Origin: a virus
IMG/VR virus record: IMGVR_UViG_3300040751_000847
Coordinates: 1-21,247 of that record
DNA: 21,247 nt
Reading direction: 5' to 3' (one strand)
Numbering within the stretch: the stretch's first letter is position 1; every line of letters starts with the position of its first letter. Under the pieces are notes generated by a model. The model was given only the letters and a program-made list of their open reading frames with translations, had not been told where the DNA came from and ran no database searches. Both the position numbers and the translations under genes were made by a program. Below are positions 4,675 to 21,247 of the stretch, piece by piece.

Positions 4675-4964
4675 TGTCCAAGGAAAAAGACCCGCGACTC
4701 GCTCGCGCTGGCGTCGATGGTTATAACAAGCCTAGACGCACACCGAACCATCCGACAAAATCCCACATCGTGGTCGCCAAAGCAGGCAGCCAAGTGAAGA
4801 CGATCCGGTTCGGAGAACAGGGTGCCACGACTGCCGGGAAGCCAAAAGCTGGCGAGTCCGAGGCTATGAAAAAGAAACGAGACAGTTTCAAAGCACGCCA
4901 CAGCAAGAACATCTCGAAGGGCAAGATGAGCGCGGCGTACTGGGCCGACAAAGTTAAGTGGTGA
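4674..4964 (+). CDS. Small basic conserved phage protein (possibly DUF6321)
   Basis: This 96-aa protein starts at ATG 4674, sharing its A with the upstream TAA, 7 nt after AAAGGAAAG. It is Lys/Arg-rich with a disordered middle. The C-terminus, SFKARHSKNISKGKMSAAYW followed by ADKVKW, is a signature I recall from a small conserved phage family, probably DUF6321, often found near nucleases and polymerases. Its function is unknown. The basic charge suggests DNA or RNA binding (inference). The DUF number is from memory and should be checked. Confidence 0.82.
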   Translation: MSKEKDPRLARAGVDGYNKPRRTPNHPTKSHIVVAKAGSQVKTIRFGEQGATTAGKPKAGESEAMKKKRDSFKARHSKNISKGKMSAAYWADKVKW

Positions 4965-4972
4965 GGTGTAGA

Positions 4973-5512
4973 ATGTCCAACGAAGAAGAACGAGTGTGGC
5001 GATACCTGCTGAACAACCGGCAGGCCGACGCGAAAGACGTAGCCCTGAACTGCGATGTCAGCGAGTTTTACGCACAACGACTCATCAACCGCATAAGCTC
5101 TGAAAACTGGCGCAAACCTGCTAACGTGTGGCCACATAATGCGCAGCAGGATGAAGGTCGCAAAGACGACCAAGACAAGCCCCGCATGGACTTGCTACCG
5201 CCAGAGATGCTGGACGCTGTGGCTATGGTTCTTACTTTCGGCGCGGGAAAATATGGTGAGCGCAACTGGGAAAAGGGGATGGCGTGGGGCCGACCCTACG
5301 CTGCACTATTGCGCCACATGAACGCGTGGTGGGCTGGCGAAGATAAAGACCCGGAAACTGGGATGTCCCACCTGTGGCACGCTGGGTGCTGCATAGCGTT
5401 CCTGATCGCCTTCGAGTGTCGCGGTAGCGGCACAGATGACCGTAAAAAACTTGGAGTGTTTAGCGATGCTGGTGTGGCCCCAGAAAAAAGCTCTGATACT
5501 GAAATCGCGTAG
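4973..5512 (+). CDS. Winged-helix + dATP/dGTP diphosphohydrolase-like protein
   Basis: This protein has 179 residues. Residues 1-48 look like a helix-turn-helix/winged-helix unit (EERVWRYLLNNRQADAKDVA, DVSEFYAQRLINRI). Residues 67-155 match the all-alpha NTP-pyrophosphatase-like family annotated as dATP/dGTP diphosphohydrolase: KPRMDLLPPEML, FGAGKYGERNWEKG, YAALLRH, WWAGEDKDPETGMSHLWHA. Family members are related to MazZ of Z-DNA phages, which removes pyrophosphate from dATP/dGTP. No PurZ gene is in this window. The likely role is shaping dNTP pools. ATG 4973 follows GAGGTG (4963-4968). The 3' end overlaps the helicase gene by 47 bp. Confidence 0.85.
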   Translation: MSNEEERVWRYLLNNRQADAKDVALNCDVSEFYAQRLINRISSENWRKPANVWPHNAQQDEGRKDDQDKPRMDLLPPEMLDAVAMVLTFGAGKYGERNWEKGMAWGRPYAALLRHMNAWWAGEDKDPETGMSHLWHAGCCIAFLIAFECRGSGTDDRKKLGVFSDAGVAPEKSSDTEIA

Positions 5513-12734: not shown

Positions 12735-12910
12735 CCCCAAACCACAAAAAGCCGATGCACATTAAACGAAATCGGCTCAACCCGTTCAGCAAGAAAACCA
12801 GACTAGGACTAGCTGTAAAATCCTACGAAGCCCAGAACGACAAGAAGTCTGTGACGCTTGCAAACCCACCTTGGGTGTCAAAGACGAAGGCCGGAGACAG
12901 CATCCATTAA
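12731..12910 (+). CDS. Small basic hypothetical protein, 59 aa
   Basis: ATG 12731 overlaps the deaminase TGA (ATGA) and is preceded by an excellent AGGAG (12721-12725) at 5 nt. The product is 59 residues, very basic (HKKPMHIKRNRLNPFSKKTR), with no recognised domain. The strong ribosome binding site and stop-start overlap argue that it is translated. Its last 33 bp overlap the 3' end of the integrase gene on the other strand, a tail-to-tail junction with no room for a separate terminator. Confidence 0.7.
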   Translation: MTPNHKKPMHIKRNRLNPFSKKTRLGLAVKSYEAQNDKKSVTLANPPWVSKTKAGDSIH

Positions 12911-13888
12911 GTGTCCCGGTGCAAGATGGGCGTACTGCTCTGTTACAGCTATTGAACTGTGGCCCGCCAGAGTTTGAACTGTTCGCAGCGGTACGCCCTG
13001 CATTACTAAATGACTTATGAATGTGTGGCGAAGCTCGTGTATTGTACCGTCTACACCAGCGCCCTCACAAGCTGCTTTGAAACGCACGTGCATAGTAGAA
13101 GCAGACATCTTGGGTAAGACACTACCGGTCTGCCCAAAAGCCCGCAGAGACACCAAGGCTCTCTCACATCCGGGCGAAATCGGTACATCCCTCCACCTTC
13201 TGTTTTTGGTACTGTGCTGCGCTGTCGATAATACTCGAACGGCGTTCGGGAGCACGTTGCTCCACTGCAAAGCTCTGGCTTCGCCGGACCTAAGACCTGT
13301 GTTCGCCAAGAACCTCCAGACCGCTGCGTACTTTGGATCGGCTGCGTAAATCTGTTCTAACTGCTCAGATGTGAAGAACTTGCGCGGGTTGGCCTCCATG
13401 ATCTGAAGCGGCTTTACTCCACGTATCGGACTAACCGGGATAACACCCCAGTCAACGGCCTTGTTCACGGCTGCTTTCAGTATTTTCAATTCTAAATTTA
13501 CAGTGGCTCGTCGCCGCTGCCGCCCAGTCCTCTCGGATATTTCTTTGGCTCTGCCGTGCTTCCAGCGATCCACCAAGTGCGGGTCCAAGCTGGCCAAGCG
13601 GTGTTTGCCAAACTCCGGAATGAAAACCCTGTCGAACAGGCTGCGGCGCTTTTTGAACAAGCTGGGGTTCTCCCCCTCGTACCACGACAGGTAATCCTCC
13701 ACAAACTCCCCGAACGTACAGTTGGCTCTGGCCACAGTCACGCCGCCGGTGTGTAACTCCAGCTCTTTGGCTGCCTTGGCAGTCAGGGCTGCTTTTTTGT
13801 CCGAGGTGCGCAACGACTCATACTTCGGCACACCTTCTTCGTACCACTTAATCCAGTAGGTTTTCCCGCGCTTGTAGATGGTCGCCAC
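12878..13888 (-). CDS. int: Tyrosine recombinase / phage integrase
   Basis: This 336-aa site-specific recombinase has a visible catalytic set: R200 (NTGLRSGEARAL), H284-x2-R287 (HELRHTF), H310 (LAGHSS) and nucleophile Y319 (TEQYAHL). The N-terminal residues 1-50 look like an arm-binding domain (TIYKRGKTYWIKW), and residues 55-145 a SAM-like core-binding domain. All key residues are intact. The start is GTG 13888 with GGAG upstream on the minus strand. It would integrate the phage into the host chromosome, and the AlpA-like protein at 7093 is a candidate directionality factor. It is transcribed against the replication block, and a sigma70-like promoter lies at 13916-13944. Confidence 0.96.
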   Translation of the reverse strand: MATIYKRGKTYWIKWYEEGVPKYESLRTSDKKAALTAKAAKELELHTGGVTVARANCTFGEFVEDYLSWYEGENPSLFKKRRSLFDRVFIPEFGKHRLASLDPHLVDRWKHGRAKEISERTGRQRRRATVNLELKILKAAVNKAVDWGVIPVSPIRGVKPLQIMEANPRKFFTSEQLEQIYAADPKYAAVWRFLANTGLRSGEARALQWSNVLPNAVRVLSTAQHSTKNRRWRDVPISPGCERALVSLRAFGQTGSVLPKMSASTMHVRFKAACEGAGVDGTIHELRHTFISHLVMQGVPLRTVQTLAGHSSIAVTEQYAHLAPGHLMDAVSGLRL

Positions 13889-14199: not shown

Positions 14200-17100
14200 T
14201 TAATACCCCATCATATCCTGAACGCGGCGCTCGCTCGTCACTTGGCGTCGTGGCGCTCGCATAAGGTTGGTCACTGGTTGCCTACGCAACGCGGACGGAG
14301 CGTTGTTGAAGAACGGGCGAACCCGATCTTTGGCTTTCTGGAGGCCTCTCCACTCCTGCCGCAACTCAGCCATCTTTTCGCGGTCGCGGCTTCTGTTGGC
14401 TTGGACGTACTCACGGTTAAGCCTGCCGGTCTCTTTGGAGAACCACTGCTCCAACTCGTACTGCTGCCCACGCGTCCACTTGATCTTGTTGATCTCGGTG
14501 GATGGTAGATTGATGGCGTTGCTCAGAAGGTCGAACATATCGAACTCCCGTGGGTCTGCTACGACGTCGCCGTTGCGCAGCGTGTACCCGTCTTGAGAGT
14601 AGCGGTACGACTCCATAACAGAGCGTATGCCTCGCGGTGCCGCATACTCTGCTGCGCGGAACGGCTCACCCTTGGACAAAAACTCCAGCATATTGCCAAA
14701 GTTCCTGACTGTGGACGCGGTGGGGCCGAGGCCAACGCTCGCCACAAAATTCAACATCCCATCGGGTGTAGCTTCGGGGCGCACGAAGTTGGAGTTGTAC
14801 GGTTGAAAGATGTCCGACTGAGAGAGTTTGGTGGACATGTCCACACCAAAGAACGCCGGGACGCCACGGGCGATGAGATCGGCCATACCCTCATTGTCTG
14901 GGAACAGTTCTTCTCGCACCCAACGCTCTAGGTTCTCCGGTTCTTCTTCGTCGCCCGTCATGGACAGGAACGCCCACATCAAAAAGTTAGCGGCTGGGAT
15001 ACCGACAGCACCGGCCATGGCACCAGTGTAACCGAGCAGGAACGCCGAGGTTCTAGCCCCAGCGATTTTTGCTTCTCTGGACTCGCCACGGAACGCTTGC
15101 TTGAACGCCGAAGCGTGCAACCACGCCATCATAAGCTGGTACTTGCGGAACTGCGTAGTGACCCTTGGGAGATTGTCGATTAGGAGCGGAGCGTCCATCT
15201 TGGAAAAGTTACCCTGCGTGTCCTCGACCACCGAGATCGCGTATTCCTCCGGCGACATGTTGTACAGGCGTCGAGCTTTCTGTGGGTTAGCCAGCGCAGC
15301 GTCATAGGCCGCTACCGCAGAAGAAATACGGTTGTTGGCTTCGACAAACCGAGCGATCTGATACAGGCGGTGCGTCATGTTACGGAACGCGCCGGTAAAG
15401 TTGTTCAGAGACTCGTAGCCTGTGTCGAACCGGTTTTCGATGTTGAGGTCTTCCTCCATACCCACATCCAGAAGCTGGCGCAGCTGAAGCGTTTTAAGAA
15501 GCTGACGGTACTTGGGCGGTGCCTTGTCCGTGTCGATGGTGATCTTGTTGTTCATGTCAACAAACCCCATGGTGGCTGCTGTACCCAGCTGGCGCATGAA
15601 GCTCGTGTCGATGACGCTGCTACCGACTTTGTACCCTCGGATCAGGCTGCCCCAGACTTTGTTGTGGTTGCCCATCTCGCCAGCGATCTTGCCCACCGAA
15701 ATGATAGGCTGTGTGGCGTTCGTGATGTGGTAGCCGAGGCTCGTGGTGAGCATGTAGACCGTGTTAAACGCCAGAATGTTGTCAGCCAGTTTGGACAGCA
15801 TACCCGTGCGGGAAGTCATCACATTTTGGTACTTAGCCACGAGGGTGTTGTAGACCGGCGACAGCGCGGAGGGGCGCTTGCCTGCTTCTTTTCTCGCGTT
15901 AATCAACGCCTCGTTGATCTCAGCGCCGTGTTTCATCTGGGAAATCAGACGCGCTTGAGAGCGACCGTGCGACACGAACGACCGGATCATGTCTTTGTCG
16001 AAACCTGCGCGGTTCATGCGGCGGGCACCGGACAGGCGGGCGTTACTTTCTTCGAGCGACTGGAAGTAGAGGTCTTTGATGAGGGTGTCCAGCGAAGCCT
16101 TGGCGCGGGCATCCAGTCCGGCTTTTTCGTCAGCCTTCAGCGCAGCCATGACTTTCTGATAGACTTTCGGGCTGGCTTCTCGCGGCCCTGTCTGATCCTC
16201 AAACTTCTCGGACGCTTCTGCGTAGGCGTACTTTTTCCCGTTCTCCTTTGCGAACTTGTTTGCTGCACCCTGCGTGTCAAAGAAGCTGACGACGTAGTGC
16301 TGCGCGTCGGACTTCAGTTTCTCAACCTTGGCTTCATTGAGCTTGTTGTTCTGCGCACGGAAGTCGGCCTCGGCGTCCAGCAAGTCTTGTGATTTGAGGA
16401 CAGCCACATAATCCCCGAAGCGTTTGAGCGGCGCGTATGGACCTTCCAGCTTGCTGTCGAAGGCGAACAGTTTGGACACGCCAAGTTGCTTGGCAATGTC
16501 GGACATCATCTGGCGAACATCCTCGCCGTGCTGGAAGATGTCTTTGACGACCTGCTGTTCTTCCGGTGTGAGCCGGTCAAACTTCTGTTTCATAATCGGG
16601 TCGATCTTGACCTTCTTGCCCTTAATCTGCGGGTCGTAGCCCCACTTCTGGAAGAACGTGGACGTAGCCAAGAAGTCGTTAATCAGTGTTGTCCGCTCAG
16701 GCGCAAACTCTCTGGCTCGAATGGCCAGACCTTCGACCTTGCCGATGATTTCATTGTAGGTCTGCTCAGCCTCCAGCATTTTATCGTACCAAGTTTTGGC
16801 CGAAGGCATTTCGTCTCGAACGTCGCGGATGTAACGAGACAGAAACTTTGTGGAGTCCAACGGTCGCTGGAAGATGGTCCGCGCGTTACCCATGAACTGC
16901 GCTGTCTTGGGTCCACCAAAGTTTTGCTCCACCCAGTTTTGTTGGGCTTGGGCACGTTGAGTCAGCGAGTTTGCGCCATATCGCACTTCGCTGACCGTGT
17001 TTTCTGTATCACTAACTGCGGTGCCCGGAGAAGCTGCGGCGACAATCAAATTTTTGTCGTTAAAGATAACGCGGTTGTACGTTATATCGTCAGCCTGCGG

Positions 17101-20100
17101 GTCGATAATATAGCGATCCCGAGTGGCGGCATCCGCGTACTTAAACCCCTTAACGCCGTTTTGGTCCAGCCAAGCAGAAACTGCGGCTGCGTTGGACATG
17201 AACCGGTTAGGGATAGACTCTACAAAGGAGAGAGCTTCCGGCGACAGGTCCGCTTTTAATTTGTTAGCTACGTTACTGTTGGCCAACCCGGCGTAAATTG
17301 CTCCCACAGAAACGCTTTTGGAAGGGTCATCAAAAAGGTCATTGCGGTTGCGTTGTGGTTCAATCGACGCCATCAAAAGAGTGTAGGCTTCGTCTGTCAA
17401 ATTATCCATCGCACGACTAAACGCCGGATCGTCTTCCCAGTTGGCGTACCAATCGGACAGCTCGTTGTCAGATACTGTAGTGTCCACTCGCATAAGGCTG
17501 CCTGTCGGTACTCCATCCGGGTACTCGACTTTCTCCAGCTCTCTTTGGATACCGTCCAGTTCCTGCTGCGAAAACAGTTGGCGGTTTTCTGTTGGGTGAA
17601 GTAAATCACTTAGTGGTAGTGGCGGAAAATTAGCGTCGGGCGTGGCTGCGTCAACTACTAGCGTATTACGTCCTATGCGCCTAACTACTGCATTTTTGCT
17701 TAAAATGCGACCCAAATCCCTGTCTAACACTAAGTCTCGTTCACCTAGGTATAGGTCTCCATCATAGGCTGGCTTTTGGAAAGGCTCCCCAAAACCGTTC
17801 TTTAGCCGAACTCCGGGGGTTCGTAGTTTTTCTGCGACAGTCTTGACGCTTTCCACTGGCAACTTGGGTTTATCGTTACGGCGTGTGCGCTGCGCTGCGT
17901 TCTTTTCCATCGCGCGGAGGTAGCCACGGGCAATACCGAAATTCTCTGCGAGGTATGTGCCGAAACCAAATGCCTGCGCACCCTCTCCGGTGCCCATGTA
18001 GTTGTGGTTGAACCGACGGAAATCCACTCCGGAGCCATGCTTACTCGTTGACAGGTCAATTCGAGCAGCGCCATATGCGGCATCAACCATGTTCTGCATG
18101 GTTATCTTGTCGGCGTCGAACAGGTTGAGTTTGCGCACAGCCCGCTTAAACGCAGCGTAGAGGTCTCTTACCAACCTGCCGATTGGCGTCTGAACTGTCG
18201 GTGTAACACCGTAAGCGGCTGCGCCTTCCAAGAAATAAGCGATAACCTCGCTCTCCATGTCGGTATCTGCATAAAATCCGGAAAGTCGCCCGCTTGAGAA
18301 GTTAAGCATGGCTTCTTTGGCAACCTTGTGCTCCAGAGACCCGTCTGCGTTTGTCGCCCACTCTCTGATCCGAGACACCATAGCGATCTTGTTTTCCGGC
18401 GACAGCCACCGGTCTACACCTATGTGCCCGCCAACCTCGTGCATAAACGCCGCAAGTTCTTGACCAGCTGGGATGCGGCTGGTGATGAAGTGTGCGTGAG
18501 ACTCGCCCTTTCTGTCGCGCACCACATACCCAAAGGGTTTGTTTTTCTTGAGTTCGCTAACGTCAACCGGGGGCAACACGCCGCTCTCGACGTCCGCTAT
18601 TAGATCGGCCTCGCTCTCGTAGACGTGAATGCGCGGGTGCGACCGCTTACCCGTTAGGTCTTCGACCACATTAGCCATGCTCTCAGGGGAAGCAAAAGCC
18701 AGAGGGTCCATATCGGCGTAGGGGTCGGCATCAGGACTGAAACCATAGCTCGGCTTCTGGTTAGGTCCGCCTTCATTCAGCTTAGCTTCCAGCTTCGCTT
18801 TATCCGCCTCGAAGTCGATGCTCGCCGGGTTCTTGAACGGGTTGAGGTTGTTGGTGAACGCCGGGTTGATCTTGTCCCACTGCTCTTGAGTCAGTGAACC
18901 AAGCCAGTCAGCCAGTTGAGCGGCTTCTGTGAGGTCGGGGTTACTCCACAGAGCGCTGTTGATACCTTCCTTTTCGGCGTAGCTTTCCTTGAACGACTTT
19001 TGGTTCCGCAACTCTTTGGGGGTTGGGTCCGCGTCACTCATGGCCTTGGCGTCAGCCACCGCAGCGTCACGCATTTGACGCTGGGTCTGCGGCGTTACAA
19101 TTTGTTTCTTTTTACGCGTCTCGACGACCGGAGTCTTCTTCGGCGTCTGGGTTACTTCTGTTTCTTGTCCCCTGACCGGGCTAGGCGCTCCATCGCTGGC
19201 GACAGCTTGTGCCCCAGCTCCAGTCTCTTTTTCACTATTGGGCGCAGAGTCTCGTTTACTTGCTTCATCAGTTTGATCTCTTGCGCCCGTGTCATTCCCT
19301 TGTTTGGTTTCTTGTCCACTGGCTTTTTCCTTTGCTGGTGCGAAGTCTCGCACAATCTCGTCGAACGCGCGTTCGATGTTGGTAAACCTGTCACTCCGAC
19401 CGCGATCCTGCAAGAAGTCGATAACAGCCTCAGCCCAAGCCCGCTGTTCTGCCGGTGTCAGTTCGTTAAAGTCAGGGTCGTCCGTGGTTGAGAACCTGCG
19501 CCATTGGGCGGCAAAAGCCTCTCTCTGGTCTTTTACAACACGGTCAACAAAATCGACCTGCACTGTTTCAGCTTTTTCCTCCGCTGGAGACATAATCTCA
19601 CTGTCGGTATCTGCGGCGGACGTGTCTTCTGTGTAGAACGCCTCCAGCTGGGCGTCGGTCATGCCAGCTTTAACGAACTGCTTGATCTCGTTCTTCTGCG
19701 CGGAGGTCAGCGAGGCGCTTGGTAGAACTTCGCTTTTTTTCTGGCCTTCCTTGACCTTTGGCAGCGGCTTGCCTGTGCGCAGATGCTCGGCATACTGCCG
19801 GACGCCCGCTATGTTTCGCGTAGAAGTAAGTTCAGACTCGTTGGCGATGGTGCTCTTGTTGGCAGAGTCCACGATGGTCATGTTCGCCGCGTCACCAGCA
19901 ACATCAGCGTTATCCAGAGCATCAAACATGTTGGCTTCGTCGAGGTCAGCGGCTGCGGCTGCGGCGTCTGCTGCGTTATCTACAGCGTCAATGTCACCTA
20001 GTAGTCCTGTGGCATCTGTGTCTGCGGCTTCGGAAACCACCATGTCGGCACGTTCACGGCGAGCCGTGTTAACAGCACCGAGTGCCCCTACCATCTGCTC

Positions 20101-21247
20101 GGGGGTTACTCCTTGGGCTTCTGCGATTTTCTTGATCGCGCGAGAAATATACCCATTGACGGCCTTGGTTGCGTTCTCGCCCTTGAGTCCGGCAGCCTTG
20201 GCGATCTCGCTGTTGATGTAGTTGCCGGACTGATCCACCACCGTGCTGTCTGTGCCAGCGGTGTAGTTATCCCGCAAAACTCTCCATACTTTGGCTTCGT
20301 TGCCTTTCAGTTTCGCTTTGGCCTCAACAACCGGAGAGAACAGCTGACTCACCAGACGTGCTGACGCGCTTTCGGCTTTGTTGGCTGTCTCGGCGTCGCG
20401 GATTTCGGTCAGCGCCTTAGTGAGTTCATCCGTTTTTGGCGCTTCCTGCTTAGGCTCGCTGTTCGGCTTCTTCGCGTCGATGATGGCCTTGACGTCTGCC
20501 AACTTCATCTTGGTGTTGTTGAGTGCATCCTTGACGTCTTTGTATTCCGTGTCGTTTTCCAGAGCGTCTTTGCCGAACGCGGCTTCTGCGTCGGCCCGCA
20601 ACTCAGAGCGTTTGAGTATAGTCTTTTTAGCCTTGGTTTTAGTCGCTGGGATTGCCTCGACGTCCAAAGCGACACGATTTGCCGTGGCTTCTTCTGCCTC
20701 GGCCTTCGCAACAGTCTCCTCGCGCACCGCTTCCTCAAGCAGCGTTTCGATGCGAGGTTTCTTGCCTTCGCCGCGAGAATACAGGTTTGCGGATTTCTCC
20801 ACGCCCTGAGACAGCGATGGGTGATTGATTTCCCAGTCCGGACCAAGCTGCTCCTCAAACGTCTGACGCCACTGCTCTTTCTTGGTGAGCTTTTTGGGTT
20901 TCGCCGGAGCCTCTTGGGCCGGGGCTGCTTCTGTTGCAGTTTCTTGGGCCGGGGCTGCTTCCGGCTGCACGTTGTTTTGTGCCGCTTTAGGTTTCGGTGC
21001 AGGCTTCTCAGCTTTAGGTGCAGCGTTAGGCTTTTTGGTTTGTTTTGGCGCGGCGTACTTCGCAACCAGTGTGCTCAGCGCAGCAGAGCGGGCTTCTGGC
21101 TCCATGGCGGCAGCAACAGTGATCTCGTTGGCCAGATTTTCACGAGCGGCCTGATCCAGTGTGACGCCACGGGCTTCGATGATTTCGACGGCAATATCCA
21201 CAGGTGTGCGCGGCGCAGCCGGTACTGTTTCGGTTGCGGTGCTTTCG
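14200..21247 (-). CDS. Giant polyvalent protein: Zn-peptidase, ADP-ribosyltransferase-like, PLxRFG (5' partial)
   Basis: The frame stays open to the right edge, so the true start lies outside. Numbering here is from the in-window GTG 21201, giving 2333 residues. Residues 50-400 are Ala/Pro/Lys-rich and mostly disordered. Around 850-1000 a zincin-like peptidase shows H921-E-V-G-G-H926 with Glu983 or Glu985 (MESEVIAYFLE) as a possible third ligand. From about 1045 to 1350 lies a domain like ART-PolyVal (GTGEGAQAFGFGTYLAEN, then WLDQNGVKGFKYAD and YNRVIFNDKN). PLKRFG (1591-1596) is the PLxRFG motif. The helical C-terminal third holds hydrophobic segments (about 1805-1835 and 2050-2081). Such proteins are thought to be packaged and ejected into the host to act early or against defences (Iyer and colleagues' polyvalent-protein work). 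The C-terminal part resembles podovirus internal virion proteins. A terminator follows at 14144-14106. Confidence 0.9.
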   Translation of the reverse strand, partial: ESTATETVPAAPRTPVDIAVEIIEARGVTLDQAARENLANEITVAAAMEPEARSAALSTLVAKYAAPKQTKKPNAAPKAEKPAPKPKAAQNNVQPEAAPAQETATEAAPAQEAPAKPKKLTKKEQWRQTFEEQLGPDWEINHPSLSQGVEKSANLYSRGEGKKPRIETLLEEAVREETVAKAEAEEATANRVALDVEAIPATKTKAKKTILKRSELRADAEAAFGKDALENDTEYKDVKDALNNTKMKLADVKAIIDAKKPNSEPKQEAPKTDELTKALTEIRDAETANKAESASARLVSQLFSPVVEAKAKLKGNEAKVWRVLRDNYTAGTDSTVVDQSGNYINSEIAKAAGLKGENATKAVNGYISRAIKKIAEAQGVTPEQMVGALGAVNTARRERADMVVSEAADTDATGLLGDIDAVDNAADAAAAAADLDEANMFDALDNADVAGDAANMTIVDSANKSTIANESELTSTRNIAGVRQYAEHLRTGKPLPKVKEGQKKSEVLPSASLTSAQKNEIKQFVKAGMTDAQLEAFYTEDTSAADTDSEIMSPAEEKAETVQVDFVDRVVKDQREAFAAQWRRFSTTDDPDFNELTPAEQRAWAEAVIDFLQDRGRSDRFTNIERAFDEIVRDFAPAKEKASGQETKQGNDTGARDQTDEASKRDSAPNSEKETGAGAQAVASDGAPSPVRGQETEVTQTPKKTPVVETRKKKQIVTPQTQRQMRDAAVADAKAMSDADPTPKELRNQKSFKESYAEKEGINSALWSNPDLTEAAQLADWLGSLTQEQWDKINPAFTNNLNPFKNPASIDFEADKAKLEAKLNEGGPNQKPSYGFSPDADPYADMDPLAFASPESMANVVEDLTGKRSHPRIHVYESEADLIADVESGVLPPVDVSELKKNKPFGYVVRDRKGESHAHFITSRIPAGQELAAFMHEVGGHIGVDRWLSPENKIAMVSRIREWATNADGSLEHKVAKEAMLNFSSGRLSGFYADTDMESEVIAYFLEGAAAYGVTPTVQTPIGRLVRDLYAAFKRAVRKLNLFDADKITMQNMVDAAYGAARIDLSTSKHGSGVDFRRFNHNYMGTGEGAQAFGFGTYLAENFGIARGYLRAMEKNAAQRTRRNDKPKLPVESVKTVAEKLRTPGVRLKNGFGEPFQKPAYDGDLYLGERDLVLDRDLGRILSKNAVVRRIGRNTLVVDAATPDANFPPLPLSDLLHPTENRQLFSQQELDGIQRELEKVEYPDGVPTGSLMRVDTTVSDNELSDWYANWEDDPAFSRAMDNLTDEAYTLLMASIEPQRNRNDLFDDPSKSVSVGAIYAGLANSNVANKLKADLSPEALSFVESIPNRFMSNAAAVSAWLDQNGVKGFKYADAATRDRYIIDPQADDITYNRVIFNDKNLIVAAASPGTAVSDTENTVSEVRYGANSLTQRAQAQQNWVEQNFGGPKTAQFMGNARTIFQRPLDSTKFLSRYIRDVRDEMPSAKTWYDKMLEAEQTYNEIIGKVEGLAIRAREFAPERTTLINDFLATSTFFQKWGYDPQIKGKKVKIDPIMKQKFDRLTPEEQQVVKDIFQHGEDVRQMMSDIAKQLGVSKLFAFDSKLEGPYAPLKRFGDYVAVLKSQDLLDAEADFRAQNNKLNEAKVEKLKSDAQHYVVSFFDTQGAANKFAKENGKKYAYAEASEKFEDQTGPREASPKVYQKVMAALKADEKAGLDARAKASLDTLIKDLYFQSLEESNARLSGARRMNRAGFDKDMIRSFVSHGRSQARLISQMKHGAEINEALINARKEAGKRPSALSPVYNTLVAKYQNVMTSRTGMLSKLADNILAFNTVYMLTTSLGYHITNATQPIISVGKIAGEMGNHNKVWGSLIRGYKVGSSVIDTSFMRQLGTAATMGFVDMNNKITIDTDKAPPKYRQLLKTLQLRQLLDVGMEEDLNIENRFDTGYESLNNFTGAFRNMTHRLYQIARFVEANNRISSAVAAYDAALANPQKARRLYNMSPEEYAISVVEDTQGNFSKMDAPLLIDNLPRVTTQFRKYQLMMAWLHASAFKQAFRGESREAKIAGARTSAFLLGYTGAMAGAVGIPAANFLMWAFLSMTGDEEEPENLERWVREELFPDNEGMADLIARGVPAFFGVDMSTKLSQSDIFQPYNSNFVRPEATPDGMLNFVASVGLGPTASTVRNFGNMLEFLSKGEPFRAAEYAAPRGIRSVMESYRYSQDGYTLRNGDVVADPREFDMFDLLSNAINLPSTEINKIKWTRGQQYELEQWFSKETGRLNREYVQANRSRDREKMAELRQEWRGLQKAKDRVRPFFNNAPSALRRQPVTNLMRAPRRQVTSERRVQDMMGY

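Follow-up and report, generated by a model that had tools for sequence, protein, structure and literature searches.

A giant polyvalent protein, most likely ejected from a podovirus-like virion, and the exchange of its peptidase/ADP-ribosyltransferase-like cassette between near-identical phages

Introduction

Iyer et al. predicted the polyvalent proteins from sequence data in 2017 (PMC5512222). They are described as giant, multidomain proteins whose genes adjoin virion genes, and their domains include zincin-like metallopeptidases (MPTases), with HEXXXH among the listed motif variants, and ADP-ribosyltransferases (ARTs) with His/Tyr/acidic motifs. Anthrax lethal factor and the N4 virion RNA polymerase (gp50) are connected there in recognizing the peptidase, and the ART clade is described as H-Y-D and predicted to be active. 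Two known systems invite comparison in the same source: N4 gp50, which is ejected, is of giant size and has a zincin-like MPTase in its C-terminal region, and T4 Alt, an ART that the head delivers along with the DNA (PMC5512222).

Two further systems are relevant. NCBIfam family NF032893 (tail-700), found for example in Klebsiella phages LASTA and SopranoGao, comprises a C-terminal region of ~700–900 aa with PLxRFG. In T7, gp14, gp15 and gp16 follow a small-medium-large order (PMC8954989). A literature search returned no reported test of the enzymatic modules in phages of this kind, and no experiment on the family.

The locus described here lies in a 21,247-bp IMG/VR virus fragment (hereafter, the window). 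The class of its giant protein and the domains were described in 2017 (PMC5512222); the present analysis adds a strain-level exchange of the enzymatic block and a possible link to an ejection scaffold.

The giant reading frame

The features of the locus are collected in Table 1. A minus-strand frame of 2348 codons is free of stops and open to the right edge of the window, as a sequence-only reading of this DNA had stated; the log10 probability of such a frame by chance is approximately -41 at the base composition of the window. The same reading held that the protein continues past the window. This was confirmed in a near-identical phage contig, IMGVR_UViG_3300041403_000175 (L002/L007), which was found by scanning viral contigs with the C-terminal third of the giant protein and which has the complete gene (an ORF of 2817 aa). 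Residue 1 of the window protein corresponds to residue 639 of L002, and the window protein is without ~638 N-terminal residues; a polypeptide of nearly 3000 residues is encoded by a single gene. The ATG start of the complete ORF is preceded by AAAGGAAA, a good ribosome-binding site. The apparent GTG start at 21201, which had already been doubted, was rejected because it has no Shine-Dalgarno sequence and the frame continues in L002. Between the window and this relative, pN/pS was 0.05 (C part) and 0.15 (N part); therefore, the coding is real and the common parts are under purifying selection.

The N-terminal arm is charged and of low complexity, and a conserved segment of ~85 aa (residues ~747–830) directly precedes the exchanged cassette. 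Residues ~318–400 (window 20047-20295, minus strand; NEAKVWRVL...IAKAAGLKGENATKAVNGYISRAIKKIAEAQGV) are kept in L002-L005 and resemble a winged helix-turn-helix; Pfam gave no credible family match for them. The earlier guess that more effector domains lie upstream fared poorly, as the 638 N-terminal residues of L002 matched no Pfam or PHROGs family. Additional modules do occur elsewhere in the wider family: a further metallopeptidase (L012), an inorganic pyrophosphatase (the giant protein of Rhizobium phage RHph_TM3_14A), and transglycosylase, methylase and helicase modules (Klebsiella phage SopranoGao). In L025 (470-3669), the giant gene is broken into three frames, probably by sequencing errors or decay.

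Table 1. Coordinates of the features of the giant gene and its surroundings in the window.
Feature	Position	Strand	Basis or remark
Giant polyvalent protein gene, 5' end missing	14200..21246	(-)	2348 of ~2986 codons, by comparison with relative
GTG listed as apparent start; not the real start	21199..21201	(-)	No Shine-Dalgarno; L002 frame runs on
N-terminal arm common to L002/L007	18773..21246	(-)	94.8% DNA identity
Exchanged cassette, 1819 bp	16954..18772	(-)	blastn breakpoints and protein comparison; 1312-bp unrelated block in L002/L007
Zincin-like MPTase domain, residues 845-1056	18079..18714	(-)	Motif, family alignment, model
HEVGGH (HExxxH) zinc-binding motif, residues 936-941	18424..18441	(-)	Motif and family conservation
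Invariant downstream acidic residues E1000, E1007	18226-18249	(-)	Family alignment (A2)
ART-like domain, residues 1067-1424	16975..18048	(-)	Motifs; PF18760 cut-off not reached
ART motif 1 histidine H1070 (HGS)	18037..18039	(-)	Family motif
ART motif 2 tyrosine Y1098 (GTGEGAQAFGFGTYLAE)	17953..17955	(-)	Family motif
ART motif 3, N1391-D1397 (NRVIFND)	17056..17076	(-)	Family motif
C-terminal PLxRFG / NF032893 domain, residues 1438-2347 (~910 aa)	14206..16935	(-)	NF032893; possibly a T7 gp16-like ejection scaffold
PLKRFG signature, residues 1606-1611	16414..16431	(-)	Motif
Lone segment over the transmembrane-like hydropathy cut, residues 2076-2094	14965..15021	(-)	Kyte-Doolittle cut 1.5
Tyrosine integrase	12878-13888	(-)	Directly downstream of giant gene

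Genomic context and relatives

Replication genes occupy the plus strand of the window from 0.6 to 12.7 kb: a family A DNA polymerase, a PD-(D/E)XK nuclease, VRR_NUC, an SNF2 helicase, a DUF927 primase/helicase, an exonuclease and a deoxycytidylate deaminase. The frame at 4958-5512 (plus strand) has a dATP/dGTP pyrophosphohydrolase as its best PHROGs match; another of its matches bears the label “endolysin; inhibits RNA polymerase”, probably a naming error in the library. The position of the integrase next to the giant virion gene suggests a temperate phage. No tRNA gene that could obviously serve as the attachment site was found within the window.

On the contigs of relatives, the gene order starts with a head-tail adaptor/portal, the major head protein and an internal virion protein (phrog_511, 531 bits) and proceeds through tail fibres, a 341-aa protein and a 563-aa protein to the giant gene, with which the large genes of the virion operon end, and then the integrase. 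Both these contigs and the syntenic RHph_TM3_14A place it among the late virion genes. The 341-aa protein matches “virion structural protein” and phrog_4287, “DNA ejection protein” (1e-12); the 563-aa protein had no database match and would correspond to gp15 by its place in the order. The L002 trio (341, 563 and 2817 aa) is in a gp14-gp15-gp16-like order, and the giant protein, like gp16, is last and largest. Judged by the major head protein, the closest isolates are the Rhizobium phages RHph_TM (43%), then Roseobacter CRP phages and others. RHph_TM3_14A has the same genome layout; where the ART would be expected, its giant gene (2307 aa) encodes the inorganic pyrophosphatase together with a peptidase motif that reads HEATH.

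Exchange of the central cassette

The window and L002/L007 share 94.8% DNA identity from the right edge to 18773 and 97.7% from 16953 on. Between these arms, the 1819-bp cassette of the window and the 1312-bp block of L002/L007 have no detectable DNA similarity, and both junctions are in frame. The peptidase/ART block has been swapped whole between two near-identical phages, with both arms constant. In the window, the cassette encodes the peptidase and then the ART-like domain; the L002/L007 block encodes ~190 residues without assignment, then a peptidase 30% identical to that of the window. The ~190-residue part resembles ART motif 2 alone. Only 36 columns of the block aligned to the ART profile, with a probability of 50%, and its reading as an alternative ART is tentative. 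The composition of the cassette is not distinctive (GC 53% vs. 56%). A scan for close relatives using the cassette alone as the query found none, because the cassette is exchanged in the close relative.

Similar module changes separate the members of further close pairs, at least four in number (L010/L012, L047/L077, L049/L093 and L060/L067). The flanks of L010/L012 are 91% and 95% identical, and L012 has the additional peptidase module; L060 and L067 differ by a replacement within the ART, of its second half. On the C-terminal tree (53 proteins), the presence of the window-type ART requires 10 changes, nine of which are forced by starred branches, so that it changed at least nine times.

The peptidase and ART-like domains

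The zinc-peptidase motif noted in the sequence-only reading is present as HEVGGH, i.e. HExxxH and not HExxH. In the family, this motif is accompanied by an invariant Gly pattern; relatives L003, L004 and L014 have HExxH instead. The HEXXH/HEXXXH helix and the Glu in a later helix that characterize the MPTases of polyvalent proteins were thus both found (HEVGGH, E1000/E1007). A structural model of the cassette (mean pLDDT 60.5) was of moderate quality in the peptidase and of poor quality in the ART. A VIA comparison placed anthrax lethal factor (Z = 5.7) and residues 2139-2351 of N4 gp50 (Z = 4.9) in its first four rows, with weak values in the range that the tool calls non-specific. Foldseek gave no match of this model in the PDB at E ≤ 0.001. 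One relative (L012:3029-12697; 3222 aa) has two HExxxH metallopeptidase domains, the first of which is missing from the near-identical L010.

The ART-like domain, also anticipated, begins ~10 residues past the peptidase. Its motifs (HG[TS], GEGxQAxGxGxYxA and Nx[VI][VI]F[NDS][DE]) recur in ~30 loci, and the order peptidase, ART, C-terminal domain recurs in 30 contigs. Judged by motif, H1070, Y1098 and the acidic D1397 may correspond to the strand 1 His, strand 2 Tyr and strand 5 Asp of ART-PolyVal / Tox-ART-HYD2, the strand assignment of D1397 being tentative with so poor a model. Unlike the ARTs of the polyvalent proteins of PMC5512222, the domain is too divergent for PF18760 (ART-PolyVal): a direct search gave nothing in the window and at most 14.9 bits in relatives (curated cut-off, 31.2 bits). 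Searches of the cassette by Pfam, padloc and PDB sequence had no match, and Pfam found no ART in the full protein or in an L005 slice, both of which included the HG motif. A protein of Sulfitobacter phage phiGT1_5, which is 41% identical to the ART-like domain over 76 aa, scores 30.0 bits against PF18760, just under the cut-off. Because this relative nearly reaches that value, the most fitting label for the domain is a divergent ART-PolyVal relative. In phiGT1, the ART-PolyVal-like protein (L039:4918-6081) is encoded on its own by a small gene, annotated as hypothetical, that lies downstream of the portal gene at a distance of two genes.

In motif 3, Asn occupies the position of the usual PARP-like catalytic Glu, and the acidic D1397 is at the strand end; enzymatic activity of the putative ART is therefore not assured. 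The notion that this Asn marks a dead enzyme was dropped, since the residue is present in nearly every family member and in phiGT1_5 and since the clade is described as H-Y-D (PMC5512222).

The C-terminal domain

The PLxRFG signature was also recognized in the earlier reading and is found as PLKRFG. NF032893 (“PLxRFG domain-containing protein”) matches residues 1647-2328 with 182.9 bits, exceeding its cut-off of 100, and 18 sequences could be aligned across ~900 aa of the domain. Of the “hydrophobic helices” formerly described, one 19-residue segment passed the hydropathy cut; the plural was an overstatement.

The model of this domain had a mean pLDDT of 68.6 and no Foldseek match in the PDB at E ≤ 0.001. 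In VIA, four of the top seven rows were podophage core or ejectosome proteins (E1004, T7 9jyy, PhiM1 and 7eyb “core proteins”), at weak Z values of 5.2–5.4 over 208–232 aligned residues, again in the range termed non-specific by the tool. Among the BFVD matches were large polyvalent proteins and, at E = 3e-4, the internal virion protein of LKA1. In profile-profile comparisons, the gp16 proteins of T7, LKA1 and phiKMV ranked first of 15 phage proteins; the scores were no better than that of reversed T7 gp16, i.e. there was no significant sequence similarity. A scan of genome contigs with the C-terminal alignment confirmed no relative. Because the Z values are weak and the reversed control scores as well, the possible relationship to T7 gp16-type ejection cores is a lead, not proof. 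T7 gp16 also differs in having a lysozyme domain, for which (as for a lytic transglycosylase) Pfam gave no N-terminal match in L002 residues 1-640 or the window protein, and the latter bears a peptidase and an ART-like domain.

Discussion

The giant protein most likely belongs to the internal virion proteins that are ejected. For the locus in full, mechanism included, the best explanation is that a temperate phage of podovirus-like type encodes a polyvalent protein of the virion interior that serves in ejection, and we assign this a probability of roughly 0.68. The protein joins an MPTase and an ART-like domain to the PLxRFG domain; at least two unrelated predicted enzymatic domains reside in one polypeptide, the mark of a polyvalent protein (PMC5512222), and the label given by the sequence-only reading is upheld. 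By analogy with N4 virion RNA polymerase, P1 DdrB and T4 Alt (PMC5512222), packaging, ejection, release of modules and ADP-ribosylation of the host may be envisaged. The C-terminal domain would act as a T7 gp16-like scaffold, holding the protein in the head core and carrying it through the ejection channel with the DNA; the metallopeptidase would cut the protein, either inside the head or once it has entered the cell, freeing its modules; and the ART-like domain would ADP-ribosylate one or more host proteins in the first minutes of infection. Exchange of the block could then retune the early attack to host or competitor. The analogies are partial: the RNA polymerase module of N4 gp50 has no match in the window protein, and T4 Alt, similar only in its manner of working, is a stand-alone enzyme of the R-S-E type from another clade.

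The two enzymatic domains might instead be structural or processing modules only, with the peptidase maturing the protein in the procapsid and the ART serving as inactive filler or docking. The Asn at the canonical catalytic Glu, the processing of P1 DdrB before packaging (PMC5512222) and the complete absence of the ART from some members would accord with this. We nonetheless regard it as unlikely, given that the H and Y motifs and the terminal acidic residue are kept in ~30 divergent loci, a retention unexpected for inert filler, and that Iyer et al. predict activity for the H-Y-D clade. A role as a DarB/Ddr-like anti-restriction protein that shields incoming DNA is suggested by a PHROG name (phrog_10089, “DarB-like antirestriction”; 5e-28, residues 1581-2308) and by the similar annotation of many relatives. 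That match is limited to the common C-terminal domain of a 4647-position profile; SopranoGao has an N-terminal SLT, a methylase and a helicase where the window protein has its peptidase and ART-like domain and no methylase or helicase module, and the label is inherited from fused modules. This role is judged quite improbable.

As for the exchange itself, the window and its relative are both metagenome-derived contigs, and the L002 cassette was seen in one contig only, as might be expected of an assembly chimera. Yet the reading frame is kept at both junctions, the domain order of the window recurs with its linkers in the 30 contigs, and the independent close pairs also show module replacement; an artifact is very improbable. 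The exchange of the block is therefore taken as biology, and it is not mentioned for near-identical phages in the excerpted portions of PMC5512222. It is conceivable, although we would wager somewhat against it, that a constant ejection scaffold and a peptidase/ADP-ribosyltransferase block swapped as a unit between co-circulating strains form a virion-delivered analogue of polymorphic toxins, with different enzymes attacking the newly entered cell.

Two near-identical phages whose giant proteins differ in a single clean block offer a natural experiment, with one scaffold and two enzyme payloads, and the exchange makes the function of polyvalent modules testable. The probable tie between the widespread PLxRFG domain and ejection cores would likewise suggest a role open to testing for a domain that at present bears no label but “tail” or “DarB-like antirestriction”.
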